Shown piece after piece: positions 24,481 through 60,510 of a stretch of DNA of 64,000 bases (within the stretch, counting starts at the first letter, position 1; each line of letters opens with the position of its first letter). The position numbers were made by a program, and so were the translations under genes. Below the pieces are notes generated by a model, which worked only from the letters and a program-made list of their open reading frames with translations, was not told the origin of the DNA and searched no databases. Origin of the DNA: Chryseobacterium wanjuense. Its GTDB lineage: Bacteria; Bacteroidota; Bacteroidia; Flavobacteriales; Weeksellaceae. The stretch lies in the NCBI RefSeq assembly GCF_900111495.1, contig NZ_FOIU01000002.1, forward strand, positions 558,001 to 622,000, written 5' to 3'.

Positions 24481-25350
24481 TTATTCAGAATATTTATCCA
24501 TGGCCTTCGAACTCTTCTTATATGCCCATTTCTGTTTGTAATTCACCCACTTAGCTTTGAAAACTTTTCGCATTAATTTATCCGTATATCGCATCACAAA
24601 AACATGATACAGCATACTTGCAAAAACATTCGGTTTATTGGGAAGCGCACGAAGCGACATTGAAAATCCAGGCTCCAAATATCTGTTGAAATGCCAGAAA
24701 GCCCCGGGAATAAAGAGCGCATCACCGTGTTCCATGAAAATTTCAAAACCTTTGGCATGCTTCAGGGCGGGAAATTTTTCATAATCCGGATTTTCATAAT
24801 CCAATTCATAGATGGTATGTACAGACAACGGAACTTTATATAAAAATGCAGACTGTTTTTGATCAAATAATAAAATCCTTTTTTTTCCCTCAAAATGAAT
24901 GTGAAGAAAATCTCCCAGATCCACATCATAGTGCATTAAAACATGAGCTTCGCTACCCCCGAAAAACAAGGTTGGAAGGCGCTTAAAAAATTTCATTCCC
25001 AAATCAGGATAGGTGAAATTTTTTAACAATTCAGGTAAACGGTCGGTGATGATGTAAAAGAAAATACGCAAGTCTGAAGGTTTACTTTTAATCGTATCGA
25101 TATAATCCCGCATTTTCATATGCGTTACCGGAGCATCAGAGCTTTTGGAGGCATCTGCTGGTTTGTTATCATATAACGGAACTTCCTGATCTCCTGCTTT
25201 TTCCCTAATAAAATCAAAATTCCATTTGTCGAAAGCATCCCATCGGCTCGCAAAATTCTTGATCAAAAGAGGTCTGTGCTTTTTGAAATAATTTTTCTGA
25301 AAATCTTCTTTACTAATATCTGTTACAACATCTACGTTTTCGAGAATCAT
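24481..25350 (-). CDS. Cupin-like (JmjC-related) protein, possible Fe(II)/2-oxoglutarate hydroxylase
   Basis: The 289-residue protein fits the cupin_8 family. RPLLIKNFASRWDAFDKW is at the N-terminus, the first metal-ligand pair is in LMHYDVDLGDFLHIHFEG (His-x-Asp), and a later histidine occurs in GDALFIPGAFWHFNRYL. KKRILLFDQ supplies the Lys for a 2-oxoglutarate carboxylate. Such enzymes hydroxylate proteins or small molecules in the cytoplasm; the target is unknown. The gene is single, with a palindrome at its end. Confidence 0.85.
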   Translation of the reverse strand: MILENVDVVTDISKEDFQKNYFKKHRPLLIKNFASRWDAFDKWNFDFIREKAGDQEVPLYDNKPADASKSSDAPVTHMKMRDYIDTIKSKPSDLRIFFYIITDRLPELLKNFTYPDLGMKFFKRLPTLFFGGSEAHVLMHYDVDLGDFLHIHFEGKKRILLFDQKQSAFLYKVPLSVHTIYELDYENPDYEKFPALKHAKGFEIFMEHGDALFIPGAFWHFNRYLEPGFSMSLRALPNKPNVFASMLYHVFVMRYTDKLMRKVFKAKWVNYKQKWAYKKSSKAMDKYSE

Positions 25351-25469
25351 TTTGTGTGGTATTTTAAATGCGAAATAAAAGTAGTGTTTTTTTGAATTTT
25401 GGGGAAATTTTGAGGTTAAATTTATCTCCCGCTGATTTCACAGGTCTATACAAGCTTTTTTCTATATAA

Positions 25470-25506
25470 TGTCATTCTGAATGAAGTGAAAGCGTAGTGA
25501 AGAATA
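25470..25506. repeat. Remnant of a dispersed GTCATTCTGAATGAAGTGA-type repeat
   Basis: The segment reads TGTCATTCTGAATGAAG followed by TGAAAGCGTAGTGAAGAAT. It is a one-armed relative of the GTCAT-ended elements at 33440-33567 and 49813-49894 and abuts the tandem array. Confidence 0.45.
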
Positions 25507-25513
25507 TAATTTT

Positions 25514-26515
25514 TAATGCAAAGTTCACAAAGATTTTATTTAAATTTTTTATGAATATTTTTCGGTCACAAAGGCACTTCGTTCAGCAAATGATAGCAAT
25601 AGAAAAGTCGTTGCCATCAAAAATATTTGTAATACGAAGAAAAACATTTGAGTAAATTACGTTTAAATAAATTTTTCTTTTAATGCAAAGTTCACAAGAT
25701 TTTATTTAAATTTTTTATGAACATTTTTCGGTCGCAAAGGCACTTCGTTCAGCAAATGATAGCAATAGAAAAGTCGTTGCCATCAAAAAATATTTGTAAT
25801 ACGAAGAAAAACATTTGAGTAAATTACTTTTAAATAAATTTTTCTTTTAATGCAAAGCTCACAAAGATTTTATTTAAATTTTTTATGGACATTTTTTGGT
25901 CGCAAAGGCACTTCGTTCAGCAAATGATAGCAATAGAAAAGTCGTTGCCATCAAAAATATTTGCAATGCGAAGAAAAACATTTGAGTAAATTACTTTTAA
26001 ATAAATTTTTCTTTTAATGCAAAGCTCACAAAGATTTTATTTAAATTTTTTATGGACATTTTTCGGGCGCAAAGGCACTTCGTTCAGCAAATGATAGCAA
26101 TAGAAAAGTCGTTGCCATCAAAAATATTTGCAATGCGAAGAAAAACATTTGAGTAAATTACTTTTAAATAAATTTTTCTTTTAATGCAAAGCTCACAAAG
26201 ATTTTATTTAAATTTTTTATGGACATTTTTCGGGCGCAAAGGCACTTCGTTCAGCAAATGATAGCAATAGAAAAGTCGTTGCCATCAAAAATATTTGTAA
26301 TACGAAGAAAAACATTTGAGTAAATTACGTTTAAATAAATTTTTCTTTTAATGCAAAGCCCACAAATATTTTATTTAAATTTTTTATGAACATTTTTCGG
26401 TCGCAAAGGCACTTTGTTCAGCAAATGATAGCAATAGAAAAGTCGTTGCCATCAAAAATATTTGTAATACGAAGAAAAACACTTGAGTAAATTACGTTTA
26501 AATAAATTTTTCTAT
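25514..26515. repeat. Tandem array of six 167-bp repeats, non-coding
   Basis: Units start with TAATGCAAAG at 25514, 25681, 25848, 26015, 26182 and 26349, a constant period of 167 bp. Unit 2 has one deleted and one added base that cancel out. 167 is not a multiple of three and no frame crosses the units. Each unit has TTTATTTAAA near its start and TTTAAATAAA near its end (complementary), a TGATAGCAA/TTGCCATCA stem, and TTTGTAATACGAA. That last motif becomes TTTGCAATGCGAA in units 3 and 4, two changes that keep the pairing. The array fills most of the 1.2-kb gap (25351-26595) between divergent genes. Confidence 0.92.
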
Positions 26516-26570
26516 TTTTTTTTACCAAAATTTTAAGATTTTTATTAAAGCAAGGATAAAACGAAAAATT

Positions 26571-26578
26571 TATCTTTG
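26571..26578 (+). promoter_or_regulatory. Predicted -7 box of the bestrophin gene
   Basis: TATCTTTG is an exact TAnnTTTG match 17 bp before the ATG at 26596; no clear TTTG lies upstream. Confidence 0.5.
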
Positions 26579-26595
26579 TAAGACCAACAAATTTT

Positions 26596-27474
26596 ATGAG
26601 AGTTTACAACACTAAAAATTTCCTGAAAATCCTTTTCAGTCTGCACAAAAGCGACACCATGAAAATCCTTTTCCCGACCATGGTTCTGGTAGGGTTATAT
26701 TCGTGGGGCATCGAATTTCTGGAAGTTGAATATTTTCATCTTTCTTCAAAATCTACGGTCAGTAATGTAAGCCTGATTCATTCTCTGCTGGGTTTTGTGC
26801 TTTCTTTATTGCTTGTTTTCAGGACAAATACAGCGTATGACCGATGGTGGGAAGGGAGAAAACTTTGGGGAAAGCTGGTGAATGACACTCGGAATTTTGC
26901 GATAAAAATCAATGCAATTCTTGAAAACGACAGACAAGATGCCGAACAAATCGCAAGGTATTTAAAATATTTCCCGCATTTTCTGGCTAAACATCTTTCA
27001 AAAGAATCAACAAGACTTGCTTTGGATGAAGATTATTCTGAGATTGAAGAATACATCAAACATCATGGCCCGAGTGAAATTATCATTCTTTTAACCCATA
27101 AATTAAATCAATTAAAAAAAGAAGGAAAAATCTCAGATGTTGAAATGCTGTATCTCGACACCCAGCTTTCCGGGTTTCTTGATGTCTGCGGAGGTTGCGA
27201 GAGAATTAAAAACACTCCGATTCCGTATTCTTATTCTTCTTTTGTGAAGAAGTTTATCATTCTGTATGTTTTGGCATTACCTGTTGCTTATGTAATATCT
27301 ATCGGGTTTTTCATTATTCCGCTTACGGTTTTTGTTTATTATGTTTTAATGAGCCTTGAAATGATCGCCGAAGAAATAGAAGACCCTTTCAGTAATGATG
27401 AAAATGATATTCCGATGGAAGCTATTGCCCAAAATATTGAGAAAAGTGTTCATCAGATCATGGATTTAAAATGA
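26596..27474 (+). CDS. Bestrophin-family anion channel
   Basis: The 292-residue protein has the bacterial bestrophin layout: two N-terminal membrane helices, the signature FRTNTAYDRWWEGRKLWGKLVNDTRN near residues 77-102 (given in part), two further helices around 215-255, and the tail SLEMIAEEIEDPFSNDENDIPMEA in shortened form, which is the Ca-clasp-like segment. Bacterial homologues are pentameric ion channels, one of which (KpBest) conducts cations. It is an inner membrane protein and monocistronic. Confidence 0.92.
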   Translation: MRVYNTKNFLKILFSLHKSDTMKILFPTMVLVGLYSWGIEFLEVEYFHLSSKSTVSNVSLIHSLLGFVLSLLLVFRTNTAYDRWWEGRKLWGKLVNDTRNFAIKINAILENDRQDAEQIARYLKYFPHFLAKHLSKESTRLALDEDYSEIEEYIKHHGPSEIIILLTHKLNQLKKEGKISDVEMLYLDTQLSGFLDVCGGCERIKNTPIPYSYSSFVKKFIILYVLALPVAYVISIGFFIIPLTVFVYYVLMSLEMIAEEIEDPFSNDENDIPMEAIAQNIEKSVHQIMDLK

Positions 27475-33640: not shown

Positions 33641-33701
33641 TTAAAAGTGAATGCTTTAATAGTTAATGGTTAATTTTTACAATGTTAATTATCGCCTACC
33701 A

Positions 33702-33797
33702 GCTAGCCCCGATAGAAACGGCATCCTTTTTTGTTGCGGGCGGAGCAAAGCGGAGACCGTAACAAAAAAGATACAGTGGATAGCGGGAGAAAGCTCC
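33702..33797. repeat. Palindromic element (GCCCCGATAGAAACGGCATC type)
   Basis: TTTTTTGTTGCGG and CCGTAACAAAAAA are complementary with one mismatch, flanked by GCCCCGATAGAAACGGCATC and GGATAGCGGG. Its GC-rich composition differs sharply from the surrounding AT-rich DNA. Confidence 0.6.
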
Positions 33798-59784: not shown

Positions 59785-60510
59785 TTAACCTCCGCAACCA
59801 CCACATCCACCGCAGCCACCTCCACAACCACCGCCTCCACTGCAACCAGAGCCGCCTCCGCTACAGCCTCCGCCATCATTATTACCCTTATCTTTTTTGT
59901 GAGGATCTGAAACTTCATTGTCTCCGAGTATCGATTCGACGATTCCAAAAATAAAAATACTTGCACAGACAACTACCATAAACATCACACTGATAAAGCC
60001 TTCTCCATCTGAACATGAATACATCAAAAGCAAAATTATGAGTGGAGAAAAGACAGCCATTCTTTTTAACCATGACTTTACTTTGGGCTTTTCTTTCCAG
60101 ATTTCTTCCGGCGCTTCCTGCTGAAATATTTCCCGATAGCTTTTTAAAGTGTCCGAAAACCAGTTCTGATGCTTTTCTTTTTCTGCAAAACCACCTTTTG
60201 ATGGGTGATGATGAAGTTTTTTCTGTAAAATATTCGGGCAAAATTCTTCCCAATAATTCTGAGTATAAATAAGATGCATATGCCAAACTTTATCTACTAT
60301 TTCGCTTGGCGAAGCTCCGTTGGGAAGAACACAGCAGAGGTAAACGAATTTTTTATACTCTTCTATCGCTTTTTTAGTAAAATCTAAAGTCCATTTTTCT
60401 TCTTTGGCTAATTTTTTTGAGAAAGGAAAATCAACATTGGGAGTGTCTAACGAAAATTCCTGAAGTCTGCTCCAGAGGGAATCGTTTTGTAATAACATTT
60501 TTGTTTCCAT
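59785..60510 (-). CDS. Membrane protein with GRDP-like domain and Gly/Cys-rich tail
   Basis: The 241-residue protein has an N-terminal domain (about 1-140) with VDKVWHMHLIYTQNYWEEFC and the histidine run HHHPSKGG, as in glycine-rich-domain proteins and the TIGR04222 type. Two membrane helices follow near 155-195. The last 35 residues are almost only Gly and Cys with Ser (SGGGSGCSGGGGCGGGCGG, in part). Cys-Gly clusters of this kind may bind metal or be modified. The function is unknown. A small membrane protein follows in the same operon. Confidence 0.75.
   Translation of the reverse strand: METKMLLQNDSLWSRLQEFSLDTPNVDFPFSKKLAKEEKWTLDFTKKAIEEYKKFVYLCCVLPNGASPSEIVDKVWHMHLIYTQNYWEEFCPNILQKKLHHHPSKGGFAEKEKHQNWFSDTLKSYREIFQQEAPEEIWKEKPKVKSWLKRMAVFSPLIILLLMYSCSDGEGFISVMFMVVVCASIFIFGIVESILGDNEVSDPHKKDKGNNDGGGCSGGGSGCSGGGGCGGGCGGCGGCGG

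Follow-up and report, generated by a model that had tools for sequence, protein, structure and literature searches.

A six-unit tandem array in Chryseobacterium wanjuense, probably amplified on the spot from a dispersed intergenic repeat

Described repeats of similar form

REP palindromes are dispersed and tied to one gene family, RAYT, and BIMEs form tandem clusters. A REP is a palindrome of 20-40 nt with a GTAG- or CGTC-like tag, by the excerpted account in PMC3733652, and the available part of PMC2817692 describes clusters of regularly spaced copies among REP/BIME repeats. The Chryseobacterium repeat considered here, R1, which makes up a six-unit tandem array in C. wanjuense, is alike, as far as the latter text goes, in having regularly spaced copies in clusters. 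It is unlike them in the length of its arms (about 85 nt), in having no arm near the Y1 genes of the C. wanjuense genome, and in its linked gene, whose predicted product is PD-(D/E)XK-like. It is scarcely credible that the array consists of REP/BIME copies and owes its mobility to a RAYT (Y1 transposase). The C. wanjuense genome does give three Y1_Tnp matches, but none of the three genes has an R1 arm within 1.5 kb on either side, on which ground the link to RAYT was rejected, and the Y1 (RAYT-like) genes L029 and L030 have, as judged by eye, other short palindromes of their own (GGAGCTCCGTAGGAGC; GGGCTTTAGCCC). An integron attC array was also considered, in view of TTTTAAC/GTTAAAA ends (by eye only), and set aside; the array holds no cassette-sized ORF.

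The intervening sequences of 23S rRNA are flanked by inverted repeats. They carry an S23/four-helix-bundle ORF, as the excerpted text of PMC4990558 has it, and on that text they share with the arm-GxxExxY-arm units described below a small ORF within a selfish element; the same description sets them apart, the protein being of another family and the site being inside rRNA genes.

Then there are the MITEs. BrickBuilt, a MITE of Porphyromonas gingivalis with a 23-bp internal minisatellite, is like R1, according to the accessible portion of PMC4596501, in that both are Bacteroidetes repeats, intergenic and multi-copy, with inverted-repeat ends and a tandem array within a repeat element. On the same portion they are unlike in the repeated unit, which in the R1 array is a whole 167-bp element plus flank and not a 23-bp minisatellite. 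R1 also differs from BrickBuilt and other MITEs, so far as that account describes them, in that its candidate parent is a GxxExxY gene and not an IS transposase, and in that solo-like arms prevail. A MITE of Cardinium is the topic of PMC9769881, to go by the part available. The open-access texts searched, in the portions accessible, yielded nothing on the R1 repeat or on inverted arms around GxxExxY genes.

The array and its setting

The window is the whole stretch of C. wanjuense DNA that was analysed, 64,000 nucleotides in length. TRF finds in it one strong array, at 25511..26513, with a period of 167, 6.0 copies, 97% matches and a score of 1843. The units lie head-to-tail on the plus strand and begin at 25511, 25678, 25845, 26012, 26179 and 26346, that is, at 25511+167n, which agrees with the six tandem 167-bp units reported in an earlier note on this DNA. 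The cancelling indels seen there in unit 2 are present in the unit alignment as one deletion and one insertion. A second, far smaller tandem repeat in the window, at 59788-59848, has two copies of a 30-bp unit (ACCTCCACAACCACCACATCCACCGCAACC), and a Flavo-1 RNA (RF01705) lies at 33701-33794 with 66.8 bits.

The array was said to be non-coding and to lie between divergent genes, and so it does. To the left, on the minus strand, is a gene for a Cupin_8 protein (24481..25350; PF13621, 92.6 bits); to the right, on the plus strand, is one for a bestrophin-family channel (26596..27474; PF25539, 248.1 bits). Between the cupin start at 25350 and the bestrophin start at 26596 there are 1245 bp. The array accounts for about 80% of this gap and contains no ORF of 60 aa or more. 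Each gene is preceded by a conserved promoter-like block outside the array, that of the bestrophin gene at 26560..26595 on the plus strand (AAAACGAAAAATTTATCTTTGTAAGAC, containing TANNTTTG, which I take to be the -7 element) and that of the cupin gene at 25351..25400 on the minus strand; their cross-species conservation was judged by eye over 15 cupin-bestrophin gaps. Directly adjoining the array, at 25470..25510 on the plus strand, is a remnant of another palindromic repeat (TGTCATTCTGAATGAAGTGAAAGCGTAGTGAAGAAT; TGTCATTCTGAATGAAG...GAAGAAT), presumably a common Bacteroidetes repeat. By eye, similar stretches occur at L074 and L258, and similar repeats lie beside or inside R1-arm copies at L018, L024, L027 and L258.

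Each unit has three parts. The first is a left arm, at 25511..25600 on the plus strand in unit 1 and at the same 90 positions in all six units, which is a member of the R1 family; the six left arms score 67-72 bits against the arm HMM, two of the units being inside that HMM. The right part resembles a decayed inverted arm, placed in unit 5 at 26270..26334 on the minus strand, with equivalents in the other five units. On the minus strand the unit tails score 4.7-6.5 bits against the arm model, weak values but found in all six, and the 5.4 bits of the unit 5 tail compare with at most 1.9 in mononucleotide shuffles, 0 of 1000 of which reach it. The last part, present once per unit, is a spacer of about 10 bp (TAAATTTTTC; 26336..26345, plus strand), which would be flank carried along by duplication. 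Since the tail is approximately an inverted arm with about 10 bp left over, the unit can be viewed as one worn copy of an element with some of its flank.

The differences among the units are a mosaic. In the left half, units 3-5 share differences, as the earlier note had it, but that grouping fails in the right half, where unit 5 joins units 1 and 6, CAATGCG is common to units 3 and 4, and ACTTTT is common to units 2, 3 and 4. Such variants fit unequal exchange or conversion, and the idea that the units spread by unequal exchange gains by this.

The dispersed arm family and the origin of the array

The earlier note overlooked that copies of the same repeat occur all over the genome. A search of unit 5 against its own genome (4.67 Mb, 9 contigs) gives 52 matches at E<=10, and at E<1e-4 all of those outside the array are confined to unit positions 1-96. 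Twenty-five arms, 23 from elsewhere in the genome and two from the array, make up alignment A1 (L012, whose left end is absent, was kept out), from which the sequence-only model R1 was built. R1 finds at least 103 places in the genome at E<=1 and at least 71 at E<1e-8, six of them the array units; these counts are lower bounds, the best 150 of 9753 first-look candidates having been scored, and the 25 model sequences, including the 23 other places in this genome, match by construction. The six units score 76-80 bits, two of them being among those 25 sequences. Position relative to genes was tested for 22 arms from 17 own-genome loci, each 3 kb long, and every one of the 22 is outside any ORF of at least 100 codons.

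Beyond this genome, R1 at E<=1e-4 has 2-78 matches in each of 18 genus genomes (the own genome included) and none in 12 genomes from other families of the order. Under the stricter limit of E<=1e-8, R1 is present in 146 of 173 genus genomes. The arm is a dispersed intergenic repeat family of Chryseobacterium. The array itself has no match among plasmids and phages.

Complete copies of the family are palindromes: an arm, a short loop and the inverted arm. Seventeen were recognized under strict limits, at 158-221 bp, and the limits overlooked L013, L016 and L035. Solo-like arms prevail, with 148 arms of at least 30 bits (some places counted twice) as against the 17 full palindromes in the loci scanned. 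Among 16 full-length copies there is no signal of target-site duplication, 286 of 500 permutations reaching the observed mean; the sole evident 9-bp direct repeat (TTTAGATCA) belongs to the L085 palindrome, 3' of the cupin gene. The R1 family has much that is expected of a MITE. It is short, non-coding, multi-copy and intergenic, with terminal inverted repeats in the 17 full copies (the right arm being decayed in the array). The ends of its copies recur in the arm-GxxExxY-arm units, which would be a candidate parent; GxxExxY is not known to be a transposase. Because the target-site-duplication signal is lacking, the family is not filed as a MITE but is MITE-like otherwise.

How old is the array at this site? 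From a search of 60 genomes, 30 bestrophin loci were inspected, that of C. wanjuense included. In none of the 29 others inspected in the genus is there an arm upstream of the bestrophin gene, and the same scan catches all six in the own locus. The cupin neighbour is kept in 27 of the 29 (it is absent in L063 and L066), and among those 27 the cupin-bestrophin gap is 133-595 bp in 26 and 1275 bp in L083. The L083 gap has an extra long ORF, presumably RhuM-like, where C. wanjuense has the array. The gap seems to accept insertions. The recent amplification put forward in the earlier note is borne out by the near identity of the units, their mosaic differences and the lack of an arm at the 29 other loci: the array is young and local.

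It is not the only array of its kind. R1 arrays occur elsewhere in the same genome at L010 (period 176, 3.8 copies), L273 (period 176, 3.1 copies) and L011 (period 118, 3.0 copies), and in genome G009 at L258 (period 231, 3.9 copies). Among the matches listed, these other arrays have the arm in common and differ in the remainder of the unit. Tandem duplication therefore recurs, and it includes whatever flank is near. Of each unit in the window's array, positions 1-90 belong to the dispersed family. The 231-bp unit of L258 (G009:C1:2009200-2010700) is a mosaic of three kinds, an R1 arm, a GCAGATT-type stretch and a TGTCATGCTGA-type repeat.

It would be natural to look for a function in so regular a structure, and the earlier note proposed a selected element, such as a small-RNA array, a protein-binding array or a replication/segregation site. 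The period is regular, the array is non-coding and flanked by the two promoter-like blocks, and the arms bear iteron-like CGCAAAG motifs. Other observations go against it. A 150-nt piece of the unit folds no better than its shuffles (z -0.82 and -0.84 for the two strands) and Rfam has no match in the array, which leaves the small-RNA array unsupported. The Bacteroidetes promoter pattern is TTTG-N17-23-TANNTTTG; the array has no instance of it, and in the window it is about as frequent as chance would give. A selected structural element finds no more favor, given the absence of that pattern within the array, an arm missing from the same place in the 29 other loci, and sister arrays alike in the arm alone. 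I consider a functional element of this kind very improbable; the array is probably without selected function.

Local tandem duplication of a dispersed repeat is enough to explain the array, which is a real but ordinary amplification of this sort. I propose, with reasonable confidence, that a single copy of the Chryseobacterium repeat, palindromic and decayed, was recently multiplied in tandem where it lay. That copy would have been placed between the promoters of the cupin and bestrophin genes. A first duplication, which included about 10 bp of flank, may have come from slippage or from illegitimate recombination at T-rich ends, and unequal exchange would then have led to six units and mixed their variants.

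GxxExxY genes and their arms

If the array is a local multiplication of one copy, there is the matter of where such copies come from. In G009 an intact GxxExxY gene of 125 aa (a 128-codon open frame) is framed by two R1 arms (L094). The sequence of this arm-framed gene places it clearly in the GxxExxY family (TIGR04256, PF13366), and it is predicted to encode a PD-(D/E)XK nuclease-like protein. TIGR04256 scores are 133.6 bits for L094, 132.8 for L120 and 133.7 for L122, with a cut-off of 35, and the gene between arms gives PF13366 (PDDEXK_3, PD-(D/E)XK_3) scores of 131.6 and 127.8 bits. The predicted nuclease-like motif D..(E/Q)xK is found by regular expression, without alignment, in 87 of 88 GxxExxY loci; in the one miss, L214, another reading frame was picked up. 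No sequence relatives of GxxExxY are found in the PDB up to E 1. The C. wanjuense genome is without an intact close GxxExxY gene, but at L014/L035 two R1 arms surround what by eye seems to be an internally deleted one.

Among the 30 best homologues in the genus, R1 arms adjoin the gene in all 30, on both sides in 18 (L122-L139). In the other 12 (L140-L151) a complete palindrome is found on the 5' side, and a weak extra 3' arm is present in L144 only. Seventeen named loci (L152-L167 and L172, largely the same genes) occupy, to judge by their neighbours, one place, between murC and the gene preceding ftsA; in L152 the murC and ftsA families are clear and the middle gene is ftsQ-like by position and by a weak POTRA match below the cut-off. 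The L035 neighbour in C. wanjuense is likewise murC (cut by the locus end). Close homologues at one orthologous place are to be read as vertically inherited and not as independent insertions. This site in a cell-wall and division cluster holds GxxExxY with arms in many Chryseobacterium and also in Epilithonimonas hispanica (L164).

Genomes with the gene are richer in arms. All 33 genus genomes with a close GxxExxY gene have R1 arms, with a median of at least 24, and of the 140 without it 113 have arms, with a median of 7 (Mann-Whitney p 5e-8, Fisher p 0.003; 173 genomes, with kinship ignored and counts taken up to 24). C. wanjuense is arm-rich despite having no intact close gene.

The 113 genomes just mentioned lend something to a different view, that the arm family is independent of GxxExxY, that the genes insert into, home to or persist beside palindromes, and that the array is a plain satellite. 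In 12 of the 30 close homologues the palindrome does not enclose the gene but stands on its 5' side, and the lack of a target-site-duplication signal is in keeping with this view as well. Nonetheless I consider it unlikely, for reasons that come from other GxxExxY groups.

Several of the clear-armed groups are flanked on each side by an arm sequence of their own. Among 19 more loci from the genus, the flanking inverted repeat scores at least 34 in 11 (L178-L184, L186, L189, L190 and L194) and less in eight (L185, L187, L188, L191-L193, L195 and L197), of which L195 holds the gene already seen as L143 and L197 only a fragment from the first group, both with one-sided palindromes. The arm sequence differs from group to group (for example TTTATCGCAAGGTTAGACTAAG in L182) and is R1-like in L180 and L181. 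Control scores are at most 31 for 29 bestrophin genes and at most 29 for 132 other ORFs; the latter remain from 134 examined, the two that scored higher being GxxExxY genes, and many are mutual orthologues.

Two GxxExxY-linked arm families are, moreover, dispersed in one genome. C. wanjuense has an intact GxxExxY gene at L120 (C1:1511858-1515208) with an inverted repeat score of 73 and arms of a different family, for which there are 29 matches at E<=1e-4 in the same genome, three of them beside the L120 gene. R1 arms are absent from both of its intact GxxExxY genes, L120 and L121, and L121 has no clear arms.

The association also holds across the phylum. PF13366 has a match in 101 of 198 Bacteroidota genomes, and in a sample of these 9 of 30 GxxExxY loci have an inverted repeat of at least 34 (median 29); of 31 control ORFs none does (median 18). 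By eye, the arms contain iterons (CGCAAAG, CACAGAG) about 9-10 nt apart and pointing inward. With the pattern CRCNRAG (C[AG]CN[AG]AG), picked after this first sample had been viewed, both flanks have inward iterons in 23 of 30 GxxExxY loci and in 0 of 71 controls (0/29 bestrophin, 0/42 other ORFs); for outward ones the numbers are 2 of 30, 0 of 29 and 2 of 42. Of the 19 genus loci (17 paralogues and the two own genes), only 6 have inward iterons on both flanks. A second sample was drawn from the order and scored with the pattern unchanged. Here both flanks have inward iterons in 14 of 28 loci and 0 of 23 controls, and outward ones in 4 of 28 and 0 of 23; an inverted-repeat score of at least 34 is reached by 14 of the 28 loci and by 0 of the 23 controls. 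The second sample overlaps earlier loci at L301 (the same gene as L191) and L315 (a likely orthologue), both negative. Inverted arms are frequently associated with GxxExxY genes.

If the arms are tied to the gene, the units of the C. wanjuense array would be non-autonomous derivatives of a GxxExxY-linked element. The short palindromes and solo arms may derive from an arm-GxxExxY-arm unit, being spread by the GxxExxY nuclease-like protein or by another factor that acts on its arms. More tentatively, and as a conjecture I would hold with less than even confidence, GxxExxY genes may stand at the centre of a class of repeat elements, widespread in Bacteroidota and without a name, each PD-(D/E)XK nuclease-like protein recognizing the inverted, iteron-bearing arms of its own subfamily and moving or copying arm-bounded DNA, so that each genome is left with tens to hundreds of non-autonomous palindromes and solo arms, some of which become arrays.

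What looked like an isolated satellite turns out to be a member of a dispersed family with a candidate agent. The lead worth pursuing lies outside the array, in GxxExxY genes so often framed by inverted, iteron-bearing arms. GxxExxY is a common protein family that so far has just a motif for a name. Were it regularly paired with inverted iteron arms, it would gain a first role open to testing, and the pairing might account for repeats dispersed over the genomes of Bacteroidota.
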